Shown here: positions 1,312 to 63,250 of the stretch, in pieces
Layout of the letters: each line of letters starts with the position of its first letter
How positions within the stretch are numbered: position 1 is the first letter of the stretch
Assembly: GCF_045679555.1 (NCBI RefSeq)
Contig: NC_092090.1
Coordinates: 32,001,288 to 32,065,287 of the forward strand
DNA: 64,000 nt
Source: Salvelinus alpinus
Lineage: Eukaryota > Chordata > Actinopteri > Salmoniformes > Salmonidae
Direction: 5' to 3'
Program-made: the position numbers and the translations under genes
Notes under the pieces: generated by a model
Told to the model about the DNA's origin: nothing
The model's database searches: none
Seen by the model: the letters and a program-made list of their open reading frames with translations, nothing else

Positions 1312-4108
1312 AACCCTGTTATTAGCAGGACAATACAGTATATATTGGTCATGGCTCCCGAGTGGCGCACATTGGGACTGCCTTGCAGTTCTCCAGCTGT
1401 ATCTATTGAAAGAGTGCAAGAGGGTTTTTCGTTTTCCTTGGAATAGAAACACCATAATATTAATCAAATTAACCCCAAACTCTAAAAGTAATTGGAAAGG
1501 TATATACAAATTATTTGTGACATTGTGGTTACAATAAAGAACGTAAACAAGATGTAAACAATATGCTGTGTTTTTATTTACAGTCGTGATGGACAGCTGG
1601 GGGCATTTTGAAAACAGGCTTTCAAACACTTGTAGCCCGATTAGCAGGACAATAGACTCTTTATAGCCCGGCTACTGTAGGTGTGAACATCCCCCTACCT
1701 GCAATGTATTCGATGCTTAAGTACTCTGAAGTGTTACATTTCTAACTCAAAACAGCAGTACAGTATTTCTTCATCAACATCTTTATGCTTTAGTTAATAA
1801 AATAATGATAAAAATACTCTTTCAAAATGCTGATGTTTATTTAGTTATGGATCCATAACGAATTACTATGGGAATAAATATCACTGAATGACAGAAATAT
1901 TGGAACAAAGTTGTTTAATGAAGGTTAACAAATGGTTGCTTACTGAATACTCTTTCAAACCCGTTGTACAGCACCATTATGGCTATTAGCAGGGATATAT
2001 TTTGTGTAAGTTTGGTAACGTTTTTAGGAAACCTTTCATTGGGTTAATCAATTAAAATCTTGCATAGAAAGTTATTGCTCTCCCATTAAAATGTTCCAGT
2101 GGAATTCTCAGTGTGTAAGAGAAGATCACCAGGAGGAGATCTCACCAACTCTACGGAGTTATTTTCAGAACAGGGTGATAATTGAGCTGTTGCGTTTTAC
2201 AGCCGAACAGAAGTCTTCTCTCTCGCGTAGCATCAATGTTTATTATTGGAATATGAGAGGGAGTTTTCCAGACCAATGACTGGGAAGGGTTTCAGATAAA
2301 TCTATCCTGACATCTTTGCTACTACACCGTTACCTGTGAGTGAGTTTTTCTATTTTTTATGTCAGTGATGAGTTCTCCTATAAATCAACAACATATTAGT
2401 TATAAAGAGAGTGAGGGAATTTGCCATTGTTAATCTCATAAGAAAAAGCTCTTCCTACCCTTCACCGAAACCAACTAGCGAGTTGCCATGATGGGGTTTT
2501 TGGTCAACATGTTGGCTCAAGTCCTTGTAAAATCCCAAGGCAATGGTTTGAGCTTGATATGGTCAGAGCTTGTTGTGATGGCATTCTATTCCATCCTTAT
2601 TCTAATGATATTGAGGGTAAGAACGATAAGTATCTTGTCCTTGACCGATCCTTGACCGTGTCGTGTCTTTGCTATCGTTAAATTGAAGACTTATAGTTTT
2701 TATCAAAGATTCCTGTAATTAGGGATTACACGATCACTTGAGTAATAGCGTAACTAATTAACTATGAATTCGAGGGCACCAGGGAAAGTTATCAGATTAC
2801 AAAGTTATAATTTCCCAATATAACCTTTCAGATATTTTCATATCTGATCAGTAGTCTTCTAATTAATGATTTATTTACTTTACCTCACGTTAGTCTCATT
2901 CCAAACGTCGTAAATTGTTGATTATCTGCACGAACCCAGTCTTCAATATGAGTCATCCATACATCAATTGTCTTAAATCATTTATTTATTACTAACTAAT
3001 TAATTCACAGAAATGCATAAACAAACAAACAAACTTAAAAATAGTTACATGAAATGATGGGAGAAATATGCCCTAGTGGGCTGAACCGGCATGGCGGCTT
3101 GTTAGACAAAGGGAAAGTTGCGTTCGACTAAGAATTCACTACAGAGTCCATAATTATAACAATTGACATGCTAATCCTTACACATAAACGCTCACTCATT
3201 CGGGAACAATTGCAATCAATATATATATAGTTACGCTCGGTGTGTGTCGTCTTGATCGTTGGAGAGAAGTTCGTTTTGGTTGGAGTTCCTTCTGTCCCGG
3301 TTATTGTGGATAGTTCAGAGTGACATTCGTTATAGAATGGATGTTTCGGCGGTTGTCTTTCTTCGCGTTCAATGATACCGAATTCCTAGCTGCAGACTAG
3401 TAGTCAATATCAAAGACTTGTTATTATTCGGCTAAGAGTTTAACCACGTGGTATGGTTAAAGATTCAGCAATGGTACTCAACCTTCGTTCTCCCCATGGA
3501 GGATAAACATGGTCTGGTGGTAATTTCTCAGAGTTTACTTTTATTCAGATAGCAGGAAGGGGCTGTCCTTGGATGTCTGACCCAACTGGCTCAGGGGCGG
3601 GTCCTCGGGTTTAGTTCAAATCAAAAAGGGATTTATATTTTTCTTAATAAAACAGTCCAAAATCATATTGCACAATTATACAAACAGTATCATACTCACT
3701 CATTCATTTTATACAACAAACAGATGTAAACCTCATATCTGAGGTTATTATATAAACAGCGGTATGGTAATGTAGTCCCACAGTCTCTCATGAGTTTCCC
3801 CCGTGGTGACCAATTGGCATGTTAATAGCTGGACTCTCCACCGATCTTTTATACTTTTGCAGGAACATGAAATATGTTCGTACCTCAAGTTCTGTGAGGT
3901 GGGAGAAAATTCCTTTGTCCTGAAAGTTTACCCTCTGTCTAATACTGTTGGGCCATGAGGAGATTCTCAGGAATTTACGACCTCTCTGTGACCACAGCAT
4001 GGGTTGAAGGGGCAGGGAAAGGCAGGGAGAGGGGGATGGGGTTTGCAATACCCAAGCAGGCGACGTCATGACAACCGTATGTTGATTATTTTTAGATTAT
4101 TTATTCAG
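1076..4108. other. Non-coding stretch upstream of the syt9 minisatellite
   Basis: I find no supportable exon. It contains a (TA)n tract at 1239-1309 and a short SINE-head fragment ('ctcccgagtggcgcac') near 1355. The AT-rich sequence from about 2640 to 4080 has the feel of a dispersed repeat, but I cannot assign a family. The open frames at 2091-2279 and 3788-4069 show no domain or splice support. The segment is probably syt9 intron between the C2A and C2B exons. Confidence 0.4.
1239..1309. repeat. (TA)n microsatellite
   Basis: About 35 uninterrupted TA dinucleotides. It directly precedes a SINE-like fragment near 1355. Confidence 0.95.
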
Positions 4109-5575
4109 TGGTTGATATAGTGGTGTTGTGTTTACACCCTGCAGGATACAGTGGTTGATATTGTTGTATTATGTTTCCACCCTGCAGGATACAGCGGTTG
4201 ATAGTGTTGTGCTGTGTTTCCACCCTGTAGGATACAGTGGTTGATAGTGTTGTGTTTCCACCCTACAGGATAATGTGGTTGATATTGTGGTGTTGTATTG
4301 TGTTTCCACCCTGAAGGATAATGTGGTTGATATTGTGGTGTTGTGTTGTGTTTCCACCCTGCAGGATAATGTGGTTGATATTGTGGTGTTGTGTTGTGTT
4401 TCCACCCTGCAGGATAATGTGGTTGATATTGTGGTGTTGTATTGTGTTTCCACCCTGCAGGATAATGTGGTTGATATTGTGGTGTTGTATTGTGTTTCCA
4501 CCCTGCAGGATAATGTGGTTGATATTGTGGTGTTGTATTGTGTTTCCACCCTGCAGGATAATGTGGTTGATATTGTGGTGTTGTATTGTGTTTCCACCCT
4601 GCAGGATAATGTGGTTGATATTGTGGTGTTGTATTGTGTTTCCACCCTGCAGGATAATGTGGTTGATATTGTGGTGTTGTATTGTGTTTCCACCCTGCAG
4701 GATAATGTGGTTGATATTGTGGTGTTGTATTGTGTTTCCACCCTGCAGGATAATGTGGTTGATATTGTGGTGTTGTATTGTGTTTCCACCCTGAAGGATA
4801 ATGTGGTTGATATTGTGGTGTTGTGTTGTGTTTCCACCCTGCAGGATAATGTGGTTGATATTGTGTTGTTGTGTTGTGTTTCCACCCTGCAGGATAATGT
4901 GGTTGATATTGTGGTGTTGTATTGTGTTTCCACCCTGCAGGATAATGTGGTTGATATTGTGGTGTTGTATTGTGTTTCCACCCTGCAGGATAATGTGGTT
5001 GATATTGTGGTGTTGTATTGTGTTTCCACCCTGCAGGATAATGTGGTTGATATTGTGGTGTTGTATTGTGTTTCCACCCTGCAGGATAATGTGGTTGATA
5101 TTGTGGTGTTGTATTGTGTTTCCACCCTGCAGGATAATGTGGTTGATATTGTGGTGTTGTATTGTGTTTCCACCCTGCAGGATAATGTGGTTGATATTGT
5201 GGTGTTGTATTGTGTTTCCACCCTGCAGGATAATGTGGTTGATATTGTGGTGTTGTATTGTGTTTCCACCCTGCAGGATAATGTGGTTGATATTGTGGTG
5301 TTGTATTGTGTTTCCACCCTGCAGGATAATGTGGTTGATATTGTGGTGTTGTATTGTGTTTCCACCCTGCAGGATAATGTGGTTGATATTGTGGTGTTGT
5401 ATTGTGTTTCCACCCTGCAGGATAATGTGGTTGATATTGTGGTGTTGTATTGTGCTTCCACCCTGCAGGATAATGTGGTTGATATTGTGGTGTTGTATTG
5501 TGTTTCCACAATGCAGGATAATGTGGTTGATATTGTGGTGTTGTATTGTGTTTCCACAATGCAGGATAATGTGGA
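4109..5575 (+). repeat. 48-bp minisatellite carrying splice-acceptor copies
   Basis: From about 4270 to 5575 roughly 27 units of 48 bp stand head to tail; degenerate, shorter units occupy 4109-4269. Each full unit contains 'tttccaccctgcag' followed by 'gataatgtgg', which is the intron/exon junction of the following syt9 exon (acceptor AG at 5563-5564). Because 48 is a multiple of three and the unit lacks stops in the exon's frame, it translates there as [16 protein letters not shown]. Marker variants ('ctgaag' followed by two 'gtgttgtg' units) recur exactly 480 bp apart (4312 and 4792), so a ten-unit block was itself duplicated. The last two units read 'ccacaatgcag' instead of 'ccaccctgcag'. 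Confidence 0.95.
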
Positions 5576-5685
5576 TCTGGGAGACCTGATGTTCTCTCTG
5601 TGCTACCTGCCCACCGCCGGCAGACTGACCATCACCATGATCAAGGCCAGGAACCTTAAGGCCATGGACATCACTGGGGCATCAG
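5565..5685 (+). CDS. syt9: syt9 exon: start of C2B
   Basis: The acceptor is 'ccacaatgcag' and the donor is G|gtagaa; the exon enters in phase 0 and leaves in phase 1. It encodes DNVDLGDL, then the first C2B strands up to MDITGAS. The second loop-1 Asp codon is split by the intron (G|AC). The acceptor is inferred from homology and phase; because of the array upstream, any earlier repeat copy would also be in frame. Confidence 0.85.
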
Positions 5686-8600
5686 GTAGAAGTCAACACT
5701 ACCTCACACCATAACAACACTACCACAAAAACACATAATATCTCACTGTGTATTTCTATTCAATACTACCTAACATCAACATATGCTGTATACAACAAAA
5801 ATAGCACAGCAGACTCTTTCTCAGTCTCTATGTCTCTGTCTCAGTCTCAGTCTCTTCCTCTCTCTCTCTCTCTAGACCCGTATGTGAAGGTCTCTCTAAT
5901 GTGTGACGGTCGGAGATTAAAGAAGAGGAAGACCTCCACTAAGAGGAACACTCTGAACCCTGTCTACAATGAAGCCATAGTCTTTGATGTCCCCCCAGAG
6001 AACATTGACCAGATCGGCCTTATGATCGCCGTCATGGACTATGACCGGTGAGTAAATGAGCTTTAACTCAGAGATCCAGTAGTTGTTAACTCAGTGACTC
6101 AGTAGCTTTTAACTCAGTGACTCCATAGCTTTTAACTCAGTAGCTTTTAACTCAGTGACTCAGTAGCTTTTACCTCAGTAGCTTTTAACAAGTGTGACTC
6201 AGTATCTTTTAACTCAGTGACTCAGTAGCTTTTAACTCAGTGACTCAGTAGCTTTTAACTCAGTAGCTTTTAACTCAGTGACTCAGTAGCTTTTAACTCA
6301 GTAGCTTTTAACTCAGTGACTCAGTAGTTTTTAATTTGTGGTTCTTATGCAGTATATACCTTTGTGCTACTTGTCAGTCTATCAGGCTTCTTATAGTCCC
6401 TTGAGAGAGTAGATACCTCCAGTCAAGACAATACTTATTCAGAATTGATGCAAGGCCTATAGAGGGTTAAAAAGCTTTCAATGCCGATGCGAGTGAAATA
6501 GAGAAGGTTACGTTACTCCAGGGCCTCCTATCTGTGGGTAGCAGTCCAACATCTCCTCGTCTTTATCTTCCTTCTATTCTTGCTCTTATCAATTCTCATT
6601 TTAGTACCGCTATGTTTTTGCACCAAGGCAAATGTATCATCATTACTGTGAAGGTAGACATATTCACACGATCACCTAGCTTTGCAACACCCACCCATAG
6701 CACGCGCTACAGCAGGTATATTTTACTGGTCATCCCCAAAGCCAACACCTGCTTTGGCCGCCTTTCCTTCCAGTTCTCTGCTGCCAATGACTGTAACGAA
6801 TTGCAAAAATCACTGAAGCTGGAGACTTATATCTCCCTCTCTATCTTTAAGCATCAGCTGTCAGAGCAGCTTACCACTTATCACTGTACCTGTACACAGC
6901 CAATCTGTAAAAAGCACAGCCAACTACCTCATCACCATATTGTTATTTATCTTTTTGTTCTTTTGCACCCCAGTTCTCTTGCACATCATCATCTGCACAT
7001 CTACCAATCCAGTGTTAATGCTAAATTGTAGTTTTTTCACCTCTATGGCCTATTTATTGCCTTACCTCCCTAATCTTCTACATTTGCACACACTGTACAT
7101 AGATTTTTCTATTGTGTTATTTACTGTACGTTTGTTTATGTGTAACTCTGCTTTATCTTGATCAGGTCGCAGTTGTAAATGAGAACTTGTTCTCAACTGG
7201 CCTACCTGGTTAAATAAAGGTGAAATTAAAAAAAAGTTAAAAAATAATGACTGTTCTGTCACATCGTTATTGAAAAGATACTCTCATTCTGTCACATCAT
7301 TTAGCTCTGTCACACCATTCATACAGACGCAATATGAATGTTCTTTCCTGACATTTCACATCCCATCATACATTTTGGTTGATGCCCTATTTTTCACTGA
7401 ATTCACACATTTTCAATGAGTCATGTGATTCACTTTTAGATCCACACAGGGTTACTGTAATGTTACTTTAATGTTCTATCTAAAGGTAGGAATAAACTTG
7501 TAGGTTTATCTTACTACCCAAATAAACGTTAAGTTTAGGTAGAGACAGTACTCCTTCATCTCCAGTCCAAAGGCAGGAGTAATGAAGGCCTCTGTGTGTT
7601 TCCCTATCCAGTGTAGGCCATAATGAGGTCATCGGGGTGTGTAAAGTGGGCAACGATGCAGAGCACCTGGGCCGAGACCACTGGAGCGAAATGCTGTCGT
7701 ACCCACGAAAACCCATCGCCCACTGGCACCCGCTCATAGAGGTAAAGCCGGTGTTCGTTTGTGTGTGTGTGTGCCCACATACAGTGGGGTGAACAAGTAT
7801 TTGATACACTGCCGATTTTGCAGGTTTTCCTACTTACAAAGCATGTCTGTAATTTTTATCATAGGTACACTTCAACTGTGAGAGACGGAATCTAAAACAA
7901 AAATCCAGAAAATCACATTGTATGATTTTTAAGTAATTAATTGCAAAATCGGCAGTGAAAACCTGCAAAATCGGCAGTGTATCAAATACTTGTTCTCCCC
8001 ACTGTATGTGTCTTTGTTTCCAAGTGGAACATTTTCAAGGTTTGTCTCAGCTGAAATAGGTTTGTATTGCATATTGTCAAAAATGACTCAAATACCCGAC
8101 ATCTTGAAGTTGACTAGTTTGACCTATGTCTGGTGGTTTCAGACTTCAGATGGTAGAGTGTCGTTACCTGCCACAGAAACTCATTCATCAAAATTATCCT
8201 CCTCTTTTCTAAGGCCTCATTCTTCTCAATAATCAATACCCTAAGAGGCTCTCAACCTCTCTACCTCCCAGCGCAAAAAATCCTCCATTGTCAAAAACAA
8301 CCACAGCTGAGAATGCCAAGGCTTTCAGCGAGTATAACTACCTTGATTTTTTGTTGTTGTTGTTGAGCCAAATTTACTCAGGAAAAATATAATTAAAATC
8401 AGACTTTCATGTGTATGGTAGTTACTTCCCAAGCATGGCAGCAAGAATACCGTTTCTTCTGAAGAAGAATCAAGGCCTTTCTACATTTCATGTCTACATT
8501 GCGTTGTATAAGATGTTGCTATGTACAAGGTAGCTGAACAACGGTATACATACAAAGCTGACATTAATTGGAAAGATATAATAATACATCTATTTTTATT

Positions 8601-9865
8601 ATTATTATGGAGGATAGATTGAGTGTTGAGGAGTTGAAGGAGGGAGTGTGTAACCTGTGCACTCAGCCTTGCGTAATGGCTTTATTGTGTTGGCATCAAA
8701 GGAGACTGTCTTCCTTTAGAACACAGCTGAGTGAACCACCAATGTTTAGAGAGGGATCGAGGGAGAGAAAGAGAGAGTGAGACAGACAGATAGGGAGAGA
8801 CACTGTAGATTAAGTGAAAGAGACAGTGCGAGAGCAAGAAAAGAGGTAGAGAGACAGACAGAGCAGGATTTGAGAAAAGGAACAATTAAGCAGTCTATTC
8901 TGTTTGCTTCAGGGTTACTTACTTAGTTAGTTACATTATGTGACTATGCTTTGAAATCCTAATTTGAGCCCCCAGGAAAGCACATCTATTATTTAGCAGT
9001 CTGCCTCACCAGCCATTTGAATCAATGTTGTTCTGCCTTCACAAGGCCCTCCCCCCAAAAATCACATATTCAAAACACGCCCGGGACGCAAAAGGACTTC
9101 AAACGCAACTATGTTTGTTTGTGTTTGTTTGCTCTGTAACCCATCACTCTCTCCCTCACTCTCTTTCCGTAATGGCTTCTGTCTTTTTGCTTTTTAGCCA
9201 GCAAACAAAACAATTACTGTCAAGAAGAACTGACCCTTTCACTGGAAAATAGATCTGACCTCGATGAGATGAAAAGAGAGGAAGACGTTTTTCTGCTTGC
9301 TTAACTAACCGATTCTGAGCGGCTAGATTTCTGCAAGCGAAATAATCAATCAAGTGCTTTCATGTTGAAGTGCTGGGAGTTTGAGAGAATCTCTGTTTTC
9401 ACTACGGGTGTTTTAGAGAGTAGCTCTGTTTGGCAGTCCTCTAAGGAGGATTCAGAGGCAATAAAGATTATTCCCAAAACAGATTTTAGTTTGGCACAGC
9501 TTGTTGCTTATCACCTACAATTAGTGAGAGAGTCTTGAATTAGTGAGCTCTTATTAGTGTATTTAGGTCACAATTGCTGCTATTAAGCTTTAACTACAGT
9601 GCAGTGAACTTCACCTACAAACAGAACTCACAATTTAATCGGTTTATCAAAGTAGCAGATTTGGTCAATACACTGACCCGAAATGATCTGTTATCTTCAT
9701 CCCCTTTACAGAATGTCTCTAGGACTACTAATCTACATGTACACAGCTATCTTTATTGGAGGTTTATCTCATCTCTCTTCTCTCTCTCTCCCACAGTACC
9801 AAGGCACCACAGGCGGGAGCCAGGCAGGGTCCTGTAATTCCCTGAAGACTCCTCCGTCTCCATAA
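5565..9865 (+). CDS. syt9: Synaptotagmin-9, C-terminal part (four exons, C2B domain)
   Basis: Synaptotagmins are vesicle membrane proteins that bind calcium and phospholipid through two C2 domains and trigger exocytosis. Exons 5565-5685, 5876-6047, 7612-7741 and 9797-9865 join in phase (0/1, 1/2, 2/0, 0/stop) to give a complete C2B domain. Visible features are '[12 protein letters not shown]' at the start, the loop-1 aspartates in 'MDITGASDPYVK', the polybasic 'GRRLKKRKT', the loop-3 aspartates in 'MDYD' with Glu in 'GHNEVIG' at the fifth ligand position, and the docking-type 'HWHPL'. The wording '[19 protein letters not shown]' fits SYT9 better than SYT1, SYT3 or SYT6 as I remember them, and the ppfibp2 neighbour supports this. 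C2A, linker and transmembrane exons lie left of the window. Salmonid duplicates cannot be told apart here. Confidence 0.85.
5876..6047 (+). CDS. syt9: syt9 exon: C2B middle
   Basis: It follows a (TC)n polypyrimidine tract ending 'tctctag' and ends CG|gtgagt, with phases 1 and 2. It encodes [20 protein letters not shown] through to 'IAVMDYDR', so it holds the polybasic strand and the two loop-3 aspartates. Confidence 0.92.
6061..6330 (+). repeat. Intronic tandem repeat of 'agcttttaactcagtgactcagt'-like units
   Basis: Directly after the C2B middle exon, segments reading 'actcagtagcttttaa' and 'ctcagtgactcagtag' alternate about a dozen times with small changes. This is a local minisatellite of mixed unit length. 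Confidence 0.85.
6650..7236 (+). mobile_element. LINE 3' end, L2/CR1-like (intronic)
   Basis: The + strand from about 6660 to 6890 encodes a C-terminal LINE ORF2 tail ('[18 protein letters not shown]', then 'FKHQLSEQL'). The non-coding 3' end includes 'gagaacttgttctcaactgg' and 'ggttaaataaaggtgaaat' and finishes in an A-rich tail. A similar tail occurs at 35720-35790. The 5' boundary is truncated and approximate. Confidence 0.75.
7612..7741 (+). CDS. syt9: syt9 exon: C2B end
   Basis: The acceptor is 'cctatccag' and the donor is GAG|gtaaag; it enters in phase 2 and ends in phase 0. It encodes '[19 protein letters not shown]', then '[20 protein letters not shown]' followed by PLIE. The WHxL-type docking motif is present as WHPL. 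Confidence 0.92.
7782..8004. mobile_element. 223-bp Tc1 MITE in the last syt9 intron
   Basis: It starts CAGTGGGGTGAACAAG and ends CTTGTTCTCCCCACTG, flanked by TA on both sides. Both ends match the long inverted ends of the full Tc1 copies at 49091 and 61645. It is an internally deleted derivative with no transposase, only 40 bp downstream of an exon. An extra inverted copy of 'gcaaaatcggcagtg' lies near its right end. Confidence 0.92.
8005..9796. other. Rest of the last syt9 intron
   Basis: No exon or named repeat was recognised. It includes a purine-rich GA stretch at about 8750-8880 and ends in the TC-rich acceptor tract before 9797. Confidence 0.5.
9797..9865 (+). CDS. syt9: syt9 terminal exon
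   Basis: The acceptor is 'ctcccacag'. The frame continues from GAG at 7741 and gives '[20 protein letters not shown]' plus SP, then TAA at 9863-9865. The tail is Gly/Ser/Pro-rich and longer than the short end I recall for mammalian SYT9. The perfect phase match supports it. Confidence 0.85.
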   Translation, partial: YQGTTGGSQAGSCNSLKTPPSP

Positions 9866-17572: not shown

Positions 17573-19636
17573 GTGAGTGTTAGGAGGTGTATATTGATTA
17601 GTGCTGCTACATAGTACAATTATTTAGGCTTCACTTGGAGAAAAAAAACACATCATGTGTCTTAGAAATGTTTCACTTACAGGCTTGGACAACTCTGCAG
17701 GTGACATGAAAAGGATCAAGGACAAGAGTAAAGGAAAGGTTAGGGGAGAAAAATATTGTATTGAATCTCAGGACCACAAATGCAGAACGACACCGGAAAC
17801 AGAAAAAGACATTAAACAAAGACCTAACTCGGTAAGACATCCAAACTTGCTTATTAATGAGGATTAACCAATGCATTTGACAATTTATAATGACCACAAT
17901 CAGGAAAACACAGCATATTGTGTTGAATTTGATACATTGACACGGCTTGACAAATGTGATGATGTTACAATGCCCCTTCGGATGGGGTAGGCCCTAATAG
18001 TTATTAGGAAAAGTCTAAACGGAATCCATGGAACGTCCCAACTCTGACCTTACCCCATTGACGTTGAAATTGAAATGGTTAAGGTAAGGGTTAAGGTTAG
18101 GGTAGGGGTTAAGGTTAGGGTTTAGGGTAGGGACCCCCCAAGGATCACAGACAGCACTAACGCTAGTTATTATGGTGTAACATTTTGACATGGAAACACA
18201 CTTATGAAATAATATTTGCTGCTAACCAAGCTAGCTCATTGGCTACATATATTCAACATTGATATTGTAGTTTGAAATATCAGTAGATTTCTAACTGATG
18301 TATTGATTGCGACACTGAGGTCTCCTCTGAGGATCAAGCAAAGGAGACCCAGCAGAAAGAGAAGAAGAAGAGCATCCATCCAGCTGTGGCGGCCCTGCAG
18401 ATGTTCACTCTCTTCTGCTGTGGTGGGAAAGTCAAGCTGAGGAAGACTGGTCCCTCTCAGAACAGACAGAGTAGAAAGGACCATGACAAAGACAATGCAT
18501 CTGATACTGGTGAGTGTTATGGGGTGTCTGCTGATTAGAAATAGAATAAGATTGGCTCCACTTGGAAGAACGTGTCTTCAAAATCAAAATGTCTAATCTA
18601 CACAGGCTCGGACGTGTCGGGAGGTGATGTTACAATCAAAAGGGTCAAGGACAAGAGTAATGGAAAGGTGGGGAGGGAGAAAGACCGGACTGAAGTTCAG
18701 CTGTTGGAATCATCTCAAGACCACAAACCCAGAAGTACAACACCAGAAACAGACAAGGGAACTAATTCGGGACAAAGACCTAACTCTGTGAGACAACCAA
18801 ACATGCTGTATCATATTTTACTGTGAGCAAAATAACTTTCTCATAATGCAGCATTATCGTTGGGTGTTACAATTGTCTTATGCAGATAAATCGAAGGACA
18901 CCACGGCAAGTGAAGACCCCTGTGGAGGAAATTTACATAATACCTGACTCTCCAACTTTACCACGTGCCCACGTAAGTTACTGAAACCTTAATTACTATG
19001 CGGACAGACAGAGATTCAAACATCCAGACAGTTTCCCCCCTGACTTCAACCTAACCCCCCTTTTCCTCCGTGTAGAGCTCCCTCTCCCAGTTATCCCTGG
19101 CTAGGAACCTGGCCGTCCTCCCGCTGGAGTGGCAGCTACCTGGAGTCCCTCTGACCACCTCATCTATGGCAACTAGGACAGAGAGAAAGCCATCCTCTAC
19201 CAACACTTTGACACAGGCACAGACGGAAACACAGACAACAGATATGAACACAGACACACAGACTACTGCCACCTCTCAGAGCCAGATCTCCATGGTGACC
19301 ACCCAGTTATCGGAGACCATGACAGAGGTTCACACATCAGACTCCATTACCCAGACCTCCACTCCTGACATGGCTCTGACTCCTGAGAGCACTAAGGACA
19401 TGATCATTACTGATGAGGATGTGAAGGATGACTCTGCTAAAGATTTGATCTCCAACCTAACAGACACCTCTATGGAGAAATCCATCAGTGAGACCAGCCT
19501 GAAAGACCTCATCGCTGAGGATGAGGAAGATGACAATGAGCTGAACGATATGGCTGCCTCCTCTACACCTGCTACTGATAATGCCAATGAGGATGCAAAG
19601 CCGCTGGAGCATGCAGCACTTCATGACTACTGGTGA
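17329..19636 (+). CDS. Unrecognised six-exon gene with an internal exon-pair duplication
   Basis: Six exons (17329-17572, 17683-17831, 18320-18509, 18606-18787, 18886-18972, 19076-19636) sum to 1,413 nt, giving 470 codons plus TGA with every phase compatible. I do not recognise the family. Exons 1 and 3 share an 'LQMFTL..C..VK' core and end SDTG; exons 2 and 4 share 'K(I/V)KDKS.GKV', 'SQDHK', 'TTPET' and 'QRPNS'. The N-terminal two-thirds is Lys-rich and the last exon is Thr/Ser then Asp/Glu-rich, suggesting a largely disordered protein. The start 'MGQRLSDP' fits the MGxxxS pattern of N-myristoylation, and the Cys near LQMFTL could be lipidated; both are inference. It lies between syt9 and ppfibp2, where human has OLFML1, but shows no olfactomedin features. 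A non-coding start further upstream is possible. Confidence 0.65.
17683..17831 (+). CDS. Unknown gene exon 2 (module B1)
   Basis: The acceptor is 'cacttacag' and the donor TCG|gtaaga; phases 1 and 0. It encodes GLDNSAGDMKRIKDKSKGKV, then a Glu/Lys-rich stretch ending 'KQRPNS'. Confidence 0.65.
18078..18132 (+). repeat. Interstitial telomere-like G-rich repeat
   Basis: Irregular 'ggttaagg', 'ggttaggg' and 'gtttaggg' units in the intron between modules B1 and A2. The matching place in the first copy of the duplication lacks it, so it arrived or expanded after the duplication. It is too irregular to be a real telomere. Confidence 0.8.
18320..18509 (+). CDS. Unknown gene exon 3 (module A2)
   Basis: The acceptor is inferred at 'gcgacactgag'; it has a weak pyrimidine tract but phase 0 fits and a TGA lies just upstream in frame. 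The donor is G|gtgagt. It encodes VSSEDQAKETQQKEKKKSI and 'VAALQMFTLFCC', then Lys/Arg/Asp-rich sequence ending SDTG. Relative to A1 it lacks the block holding the start ATG. Confidence 0.55.
18606..18787 (+). CDS. Unknown gene exon 4 (module B2)
   Basis: The acceptor is 'ctacacag' and the donor TCT|gtgaga. It encodes GSDVSGGDVTIKRVKDKSNG onward to 'GQRPNS', clearly paralogous to module B1. Confidence 0.65.
18886..18972 (+). CDS. Unknown gene exon 5
   Basis: The acceptor is 'ttatgcag' and the donor CAC|gtaagt; phase 0 at both ends, 29 codons. It encodes 'INRRTPRQVKTPVEEIYIIP' then DSPTLPRAH. Confidence 0.65.
19076..19636 (+). CDS. Unknown gene terminal exon
   Basis: The acceptor is 'cctccgtgtag'; the stop TGA is at 19634-19636. 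It has 186 residues: an ordered-looking 'SSLSQLSLARNLAVLPLEWQ' start, a Thr/Gln-rich middle ('TQAQTETQTTDMNTDTQTT'), then an acidic end. An AATAAA hexamer at 19821-19826 gives a plausible poly(A) site. Confidence 0.7.
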   Translation, partial: SSLSQLSLARNLAVLPLEWQLPGVPLTTSSMATRTERKPSSTNTLTQAQTETQTTDMNTDTQTTATSQSQISMVTTQLSETMTEVHTSDSITQTSTPDMALTPESTKDMIITDEDVKDDSAKDLISNLTDTSMEKSISETSLKDLIAEDEEDDNELNDMAASSTPATDNANEDAKPLEHAALHDYW

Positions 19637-22057: not shown

Positions 22058-23492
22058 GAACCCCCCCCCCCTCAAGGTGCGAACTCCGGGCGCACCACCT
22101 AAAACTCTAGGGGAGGGTCTGGGTGGGCGTCTGTCTGCGGTGGCGTCTCTGGCGCGGGACGTGGACCCCACTTTAACAATGTCTTTGTCCGCCTCCTTAA
22201 TCGCCCTCCATATCAACCCCACTGGACCAAGGGGCAGCACCGGACTAAGGGGCAGCACCGGACTGAGGGGCAGCACCGGACTGAGGGGCAGCACCGGACT
22301 GAGGGGCAGCACCGGACTGAGGGGCAGATCCTGGCTGGCGGGCGGTTCTGGCAGGTCCTGGCTGGCGGGCGGCTCTGGCAGCTCCTGGCTGGCTGGCTCT
22401 GGCAGCTCCTGGCTGGCTGGCTCTGGCAGCTCCTGGCTGGCTGGCTCTGGCAGCTCCTGGCTGGCTGGCTCTGGCAGCTCCTGGCTGGCTGACGGCACTG
22501 GCAGGTCCTGGCTGGCTGACGGCACTGGCAGGTCCTGGCTGGCTGACGGCACTGGCAGGTCCTGTCTGGCGGACGGCTCTGGCTGCTCCTGTCTGGCGGA
22601 CGGCTCTGGCTGCTCCTGTCTGGCGGACGGCTCTGGCTGCTCCTGTCTGGCGGACGGCTCTGGCTGCTCCTGTCTGGCGTACGGCTCTAGCGGCTCGGGA
22701 CAGACGGGCAGCTCTGACGGCTCGGGACAGACGGGCAGCTCTGACGCCTCGGGACAGACGGGCAGCTCTGACGGCTCGGGACAGACGGGCAGCTCTGACG
22801 GCTCGGGACAGACGGGCGGCTCAGATGACGCTGGGCAGGCAGGCAGCTCAGACAGCGCTGGGCAGGCAGGCAGTTCAGGCAGCGCTGGGCAGGCAGGCAG
22901 CTCAGACAGCGCTGGGCAGGCAGGCAGCTCAGACAGCGCTGGGCAGACGGGTACACCTGTAGGGAGGAGACGGAGAGACAGCCTGGTGCGGGGGGCTGCC
23001 ACCGGAGGACTGGTACGTGGAGGTGGCACCGGATATACCGGACCGTGATGGAGTACATGCGCTCTTGAGCACCGAGCCTGCCCAACCTTACCAGGTTGCA
23101 TGGTCCCCGTAGCCCTGCCAGTGCGGCGAGGTGGAATAGCCCGCACTGGGCTATGCTGGCGAACCGGGGACACCATTTGTAAGGCTGGTGCCATGTATGC
23201 CGGCCCGAGGAGACGCACTGGAGACCAGACGCGTTGAGCCGGCTTCATGGCACCTGGCTCAATGCCCAATCTAGCCCTACCAGTGCGGGGAGGTGGAATA
23301 ACCCGCACCGGGCTATGCACACGTACAGGAGACACCGTGCGCTTTACCGCATAACACGGTGTCTGCCCGTACTCTCGCTCTCCACGGTAAGATCGGGAAG
23401 TGGGCGCAGGTCTCCTACCAGACTTCGCCACACTATCCTTTAGCCCCCCCCAATAAATTTTTGGGCTTGACTCACAGGCTTGACTCACAGGC
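22058..23492 (-). mobile_element. LTR-element internal region with a proline-rich repeat ORF
   Basis: An open frame runs on the minus strand from 23488 into the LTR (to 21938; 516 codons). It has Arg/Pro-rich 'SPVR.(H/I)SPVR' pairs, then tandem blocks such as 'SELPACPAL', 'QEQPEPSAR', 'LPVPSASQD', 'QELPEPAS' and 'LPLSPV'. No protease, reverse transcriptase or integrase motif is visible, so I do not assign gag or any named product. A 5' LTR in the same orientation is absent, so the element is truncated. Confidence 0.6.
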
Positions 23493-29440: not shown

Positions 29441-29823
29441 ATCACACAGGCAGACGCATGCACGTACACACACACAAACACAGGCAGACGCATGCACGTA
29501 CACACACACAAACACAGGCAGACGCATGCACGTACACACACGCACAGACGCATGCACGTACACACACACAAACACAGGCAGACGCATGCACGTACACACA
29601 CACAAACACAGGCAGACGCATGCACGTACACACACAAACACAGGCAGACGCATGCACGTACACACACGCACAAACACAGGCATACGCATGCACGTACACA
29701 CACGCACAAACACAGGCAGACGCATGCACGTACACACACACAAACACAGGCAGACGCATGCACGTACACACACACAAACACAGGCAGACGCATGCACATA
29801 CACACGCACAAACGCAGGCAGAT
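29441..29823 (+). repeat. 34-bp minisatellite, 11 copies, alternating purine-pyrimidine
   Basis: The core 'gacgcatgcacgtacacaca' recurs 11 times, usually spaced 34 bp apart (range 26-36). GCATGCACGTAC followed by CA runs alternates purine and pyrimidine almost without break, a sequence class prone to Z-DNA. The many His/Thr and Cys/Val frames are artefacts. Confidence 0.95.
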
Positions 29824-31082: not shown

Positions 31083-31405
31083 TGTGTAGCCTATGTTATG
31101 ATGTGTAGCCTATGTTAACATGTGTAGCCTATGTTATGATGTGTAGCCTATGTTATGATGTGCAGTCTATGTTATGATGTGCAGCCTATGTTATGATGTG
31201 CAGTCTATGTAATGATGTGTAGCCTATGTCTTGATGTGTAGACTATGTTATGATGTGTAGCCTATGTTATGATGTGGAGTCTATGTAATGATGTGTAGAC
31301 TATGTTATGATGTGTAGACTATTTTATGACGTGTAGACTATTTTATGACGTGTAGACTATGTTATGATGTGTAGCCTATGTGTTGATGTGTAGACTATTT
31401 TATGA
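31083..31405 (+). repeat. 19-bp minisatellite, 17 copies
   Basis: The unit 'tgtgtagcctatgttatga' repeats 17 times with point variants (cag/gag/gac, 'attttatga', 'atgtaatga'). Distribution of variants suggests local block duplication. Confidence 0.95.
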
Positions 31406-31632
31406 TGTGTTTTTTGCTGAACAGTATATTAGACAGAACACCATTCATGATTGCCATGCGTACAACATTTGGTCATTGACATACTGTATGTAGTGATTTG
31501 ATGCTCTCTGGTGGCCTTGTAAGGCATAGCAGCACATCACTGCCTCCATGCTCTCCTATACAGATAGCAAAGATGGTGGATAATGAAGATGCTACATAAA
31601 GGCTGTTTACCATAAAAACAAATAGGTCAAGA

Positions 31633-39987: not shown

Positions 39988-58551
<18,564 letters not shown>

Positions 58552-61644: not shown

Positions 61645-63250
<1,606 letters not shown>

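Follow-up and report, generated by a model that had tools for sequence, protein, structure and literature searches.

The syt9 locus and its conserved junction

The stretch analysed here, a 64-kb window of the Salvelinus alpinus genome, carries on its plus strand the last exons of the synaptotagmin gene syt9 and, directly against the first exon of the C2B domain, a minisatellite whose unit combines the end of the preceding intron with the beginning of that exon. The first C2B exon spans positions 5565–5685 (121 nt), starts in phase 0, is followed by the donor GTAGAA and is marked by the conserved opening residues DNVDLG; in-frame splicing and protein comparison place the second C2B exon at 5876–6047, the third at 7612–7741 and the last coding exon, which closes with a stop codon, at 9797–9865, all on the plus strand. 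Spliced in frame, the four exons encode a 163-residue C terminus followed by the stop. This C terminus is identical at 162 of 163 positions to P0051 from Oncorhynchus keta, the best match among retrieved proteins 350 residues or longer, at 161 to P0036 from Salvelinus namaycush and at 154 to P0008 from Megalops atlanticus, and both P0051 and P0036 carry the NCBI name synaptotagmin-9-like. The C2B domain also matches solved structures of synaptotagmins, best that of synaptotagmin-3. Judged by this homology, the gene is syt9, with a C2B domain and C terminus of the syt9 type. A further tandem array, with about six copies of a 38-bp unit, lies at 6062–6334 and begins approximately 15 bases past the donor of the exon ending at 6047.

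When the last three units of the minisatellite were searched together with the exon, the residue immediately before the exon's first was Q in 103 of the 120 listed matches (of 219), with 12 unscorable and 5 showing another residue; most of these matches are unnamed and were read as genomic frames, and Q is what a CAG read through from the intron would encode. With the frame of the entire array plus the exon as query, DNVDLG appeared in 91 of the 120 listed matches (of 397), mostly after VSS, VTS or VTN. The conserved Q/DNVDLG junction indicates a phase 0 intron with its conserved acceptor at 5565; most likely, then, the repeat was copied from the exon and did not give rise to it. A motif scan did not find a C2A exon in the window, the upstream exon lying outside it or having been missed by the scan, so it is from homologous proteins that the array is placed between C2A and C2B.

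A 48-bp minisatellite at the intron–exon boundary

Tandem Repeats Finder (TRF), run on the 64-kb window, reported a repeat at 4250–5574 with a period of 48, 27.6 copies and 98% matches. Cutting at every AG|GATA produced 27 tandem units on the plus strand, all exactly 48 bp, from 4269 to 5564. Each is a near copy of ten exon bases, from the start of the 5565–5685 exon, and 38 intron-like bases, from the end of the syt9 intron, and each closes with an acceptor AG. The exon at 5565 agrees with the unit start GATAATGTGG at 10 of 10 bases, beyond which exon and unit differ; the unit ends in ...TTTCCACCCTGCAG. In the register of 38 intron and 10 exon bases, four sampled units differed from the true junction at 0–3 of 48 positions. 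A sequence-only reading of this DNA had proposed a roughly 27-fold minisatellite at a splice acceptor of syt9, with units joining an intron end to an exon start, and the repeat boundaries, the unit composition and the protein identities confirm that proposal.

Eighteen of the 27 units equal the consensus, and the others carry C46A (two units), A29G (three), G22T with A29G (one), T35C (one) or C42A with C43A (two). The last two units (5469–5564, plus strand), which hold the acceptors for exon starts at 5517 and 5565, both end in CCACAATGCAG, a CC-to-AA change, so that the two acceptors lie in an identical, weaker context. Ten units at 4269–4748 recur as a block at 4749–5228, with one difference in 480 bp, giving a higher-order duplication on the plus strand across 4269–5228. 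On the 5′ side of the 27 units, also on the plus strand, the array decays into a degenerate edge (4106–4268) consisting of a partial copy (4106–4144) and three shorter copies of 43, 43 and 38 bp (4145–4268), in which the frame is either not preserved or stopped, with a TAG at 4245.

Chance similarity was ruled out: outside the array region, on either strand, nothing in the window comes closer to a 40-base unit core than 16 mismatches. A coding repeat domain was also rejected: the frame is closed upstream by the TAG at 4245, five of the six frames are open, and no word of the repeat other than LQDNV occurs in the examined proteins. Searching prokaryote and virus contig collections with the repeat DNA gave 0 matches in each, which carries little weight given those collections, and a tRNA scan of the window returned 0 genes.

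Splice signals within the units

In each 48-bp consensus unit, a U-rich tract and a lone AG are accompanied by one branch-like TTGAT, located 34 nt ahead of that AG. Across the 1,296-bp array there are 27 AG dinucleotides, compared to approximately 94 expected at the window's rate. The 28 in-frame acceptors from 4269 to 5565 read CAG in 26 cases and AAG in 2. Scored with a Shapiro–Senapathy-type matrix, which was used for all acceptor and donor values given here, 22 sites reach 11.4 bits, as does 4269, followed by 5469 (10.8), 5517 and 5565 (7.2 each) and the two AAG sites (6.8). The proposed multiplication of the acceptor is thus supported, and the copies include complete local signals. The poorer pyrimidine tract previously noted at the true junction (CCACAATGCAG) is also present, but it is common to acceptor 5517 one unit upstream.

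Donor-like sites are poor, the best scoring 1.8 bits within the 48-bp units and 2.9 at the array edge, compared to 5.1 and 10.0 at true donors, making splicing within the array unlikely. No site was found to act as both 5′ and 3′ splice site, as in the dual-specific sites of the polyubiquitin gene UBC, and splicing of the UBC kind inside the array was ruled out by the lack of good donors, the acceptors reading AG|GA. The idea that branch-point placement shields the true site likewise fails: the branch-like motif lies inside the unit, and since one such 48-bp unit directly precedes the true acceptor, any branch point there recurs throughout the array.

Probable origin and recent growth of the array

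Copies at the 5′ edge join an exon-like GATA to the intron's CAGTGG with a 43-bp period, whereas the homogeneous units include ten exon bases and have a 48-bp period. This difference suggests that a first duplication ended four bases into the exon and the later family ten bases in, with GTGG as a short homology, although point changes could alternatively have produced it. Slippage or unequal exchange may have copied a segment spanning the last part of the syt9 intron and the opening bases of the C2B exon. Given the near-perfect 480-bp block duplication, the array has probably grown in recent times in a large, block-wise step, barring assembly error, and is probably length-polymorphic.

Reading frame and predicted proteins

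The 27 additional acceptors, from 4269 to 5517, are all in frame with the exon and open through 5685; their use would add 16 to 432 residues and create exons of 169 to 1,417 nt. All three edge acceptors are stopped: 4188 although in frame, 4145 and 4231 in addition to being out of frame. The proposed frame-preserving, stop-free character of the units thus holds for the 27 acceptors and not for the edge copies. As evidence this openness counts for little, since five of the six frames of the unit contain no stop and base-shuffled units were open in frame 0 in 40% of 20,000 trials. The related proposal, that n × 16 residues could be inserted between C2A and C2B, stands as far as frame and openness go; its placement is taken from homologous proteins. 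The inserted 16-mer is hydrophobic (mean hydropathy +1.2), so long inclusions would probably damage the protein.

For traces of such insertions, we examined 240 proteins, comprising the 120 listed of 397 matches to the array plus exon frame (7,999 candidates scored from a capped list, with candidate length bounded) and the 120 listed of 219 matches to the last three units plus exon, from 616 matches in total. The repeat peptide occurred in 0 of these 240, a weak negative since a +16 isoform could sit unseen within a 90% cluster (32 sequences are represented by P0051). The sole five-residue word in common with the repeat, LQDNV, was present in 1 and 12 proteins of the two listed sets, reflecting the conserved CAG|DNV junction in genomic reading frames. 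A composite repeat peptide of five frames drew 104 candidates, none at E ≤ 1e-3.

Comparison with known boundary repeats

Structurally, the array falls within a known kind of repeat, the 'mirage' minisatellites described from amphioxus, and is unusual in its size, near-identity and in-frame unit. The amphioxus mirages (globins BflGb6 and BflGb9, and Adh3) comprise many units with splice signals, a homogenized centre and divergent edges (PMC3087553). The syt9 array shares these features: its unit holds intron and exon bases of one boundary and is continuous with the exon at 5565, splice-signal copies recur in the units to give the 28 in-frame acceptors, and a homogenized centre, with two-thirds of the units identical (18/27), is flanked by divergent edges, namely the 43-, 43- and 38-bp copies on one side and the CC-to-AA change of the last two units on the other. 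BflGb6 is the closest in layout, as there too the array lies on the acceptor side, its unit joining the 3′ intron end to the 5′ portion of the following exon (PMC3087553). Its units are 150–160 bp and those of Adh3 10–72 bp, in contrast to 27 near-identical, in-frame and stop-free units of 48 bp in syt9. Length variation and splicing were both examined in amphioxus, whereas the syt9 array is known here from one sequence; the Adh3 data and reverse transcription–polymerase chain reaction on the globins suggested that regular splicing was undisturbed (PMC3087553).

Two human repeats lie on the donor side. The variable number tandem repeat (VNTR) in ABCA7 intron 18 has a 25-bp unit and approximately 24 reference copies, and its first two bases are the donor; one-unit retention amounts to 2 ± 1%, independent of VNTR size (PMC5954066). 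Like the syt9 array, it adjoins the exon and holds the splice site itself, but one retained unit shifts the frame and leads to nonsense-mediated decay, whereas a slip in syt9 would stay in frame. In F7 intron 7, which contains 37-bp repeats compared to 48 bp in syt9, only the most upstream, exon-adjacent donor is normally used (PMC6627357). The syt9 repeat differs from both in that it does not include the upstream exon's donor but multiplies the downstream exon's acceptor. Human segmental duplications also contain variable internal tandem repeats, with 27 intron modifications and exon–intron boundary minisatellites that alter splicing (PMC2812944); these are novel introns in recent paralogues, with units averaging 30 bp and repeated 4 times.

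We favour, as the probable reading, an acceptor-side mirage minisatellite in syt9 with splicing mainly at 5565 and perhaps a few percent of stable, in-frame isoforms longer by 16 residues. By analogy with the published cases, most transcripts would join the upstream exon to 5565 and lose the array with the intron, 5565 being preferred because it alone adjoins the intact exon and lies nearest the exon's donor. Occasional slips to 5517 or 5469 would place 16 or 32 extra residues in the C2A–C2B linker, since the acceptors from 4269 to 5517 are all in frame and stop-free, and we would expect them in a few percent of transcripts or fewer. Actual use of the decoys, whose competition with the true site the earlier reading considered plausible, finds no support in the examined proteins (a weak test), and the published boundary repeats are reported to use the regular or exon-adjacent site.

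Several observations weigh against this preference for 5565. With the same matrix, 24 of the 27 upstream acceptors outscore it (10.8–11.4 versus 7.2 bits), and the same branch-like motif is found in all, so that local signals favour the decoys. The amphioxus BflGb6 array has only 6 and 3 units in its two haplotypes, far below the 27 of syt9 (PMC3087553). Finally, a boundary VNTR can strongly affect splicing, as in ABCA7, where exon 19 skipping rises with VNTR size (PMC5954066).

Alternative readings

If those local signals prevailed, array acceptors would be used often and syt9 would yield a ladder of in-frame isoforms differing in linker length, with a range tracking array copy number. The higher decoy scores point this way, as does the presence in each decoy of a separate branch-like motif, tract and AG, with all 27 in frame and open. 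In UBC, tandem dual-specific splice sites are used stochastically to give isoforms differing by whole units (PMC10809524), and its sites, like those of syt9, are spaced by a multiple of three; in UBC, however, each site is donor and acceptor at once within coding repeats, whereas the syt9 units offer acceptors and no good donor. Against a ladder stand the absence of any such protein among the 240 examined, where a +16 form could hide within a 90% cluster, the exons of up to 1,417 nt and hydrophobic peptide that distant units would bring, and the precedents of F7, ABCA7 and amphioxus, which favour the regular site. We consider frequent use of the array acceptors unlikely. The more far-reaching proposal, that individuals inherit, through array copy number, differing series of stable, in-frame syt9 isoforms in 16-residue linker steps, such that a minisatellite allele would directly tune a calcium sensor of exocytosis, we hold to be distinctly improbable.

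The array might instead act at the RNA level: a long GU-rich stretch close to the 3′ splice site would gather GU-binding proteins in step with copy number, and these would change either how often the 121-nt exon is included or how strongly the gene is expressed. Proteins that bind GU-rich RNA include TDP-43 and the CELF family. TGTG, TGTT and TTGT occur in the array at 66, 45 and 63 per kb, respectively, compared to 13, 8 and 7 elsewhere in the window, and the length-dependent skipping of ABCA7 exon 19 offers a parallel (PMC5954066). Skipping an exon of 121 nt, which is not a multiple of three, would nevertheless break the C2B frame, and we regard such a role as rather improbable.

An assembly error accounting wholly or partly for the copy number is very improbable: the 480-bp block duplication with its one difference could be artificial, and one amphioxus mirage is reported to have been misassembled in a draft genome (PMC3087553), but the degenerate copies at the edge, like several private variants among the units, are consistent with a genuine array, and 17 units would still stand after removal of one block.

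Other features of the window

The window is rich in tandem repeats, with 48 TRF rows, some overlapping, including two more minisatellites at 29444–29822 (34-bp unit) and 31083–31410 (19-bp unit). A GC-rich, coding-like tandem array of 18- and 27-bp units at 22230–22951 lies within long open frames of both strands; the longest of these frames, 518 amino acids on the minus strand, has no Pfam match. Also lacking a Pfam match is a 186-amino-acid open frame at 19076–19636 (plus strand), which is rich in T, S, D and E and appears coding-like by eye. Two closely similar Tc1-like transposase remnants lie in opposite orientation at 49307–50376 (minus strand) and 61965–62976 (plus strand); the 5′ reading frame of the former matches the Pfam Sleeping Beauty helix-turn-helix and Tc3 transposase domains, and the latter is known from the list of open reading frames.

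Implications

With 28 in-frame acceptors on one pre-mRNA, near-identical in their local signals and slightly weaker next to the exon, the syt9 array constitutes a natural cis-competition experiment, in which junction counts per unit would gauge the weight of exon sequence and of proximity to the next donor in 3′ splice-site choice. Slip products of the acceptors from 4269 to 5517, involving neither a frameshift nor a stop, should escape nonsense-mediated decay, unlike those of ABCA7. If the decoys are used, array length would be a simple genotype for a series of synaptotagmin linker lengths; if they are not, a gene can tolerate the growth of a boundary minisatellite beyond 1.2 kb at one of its acceptors.
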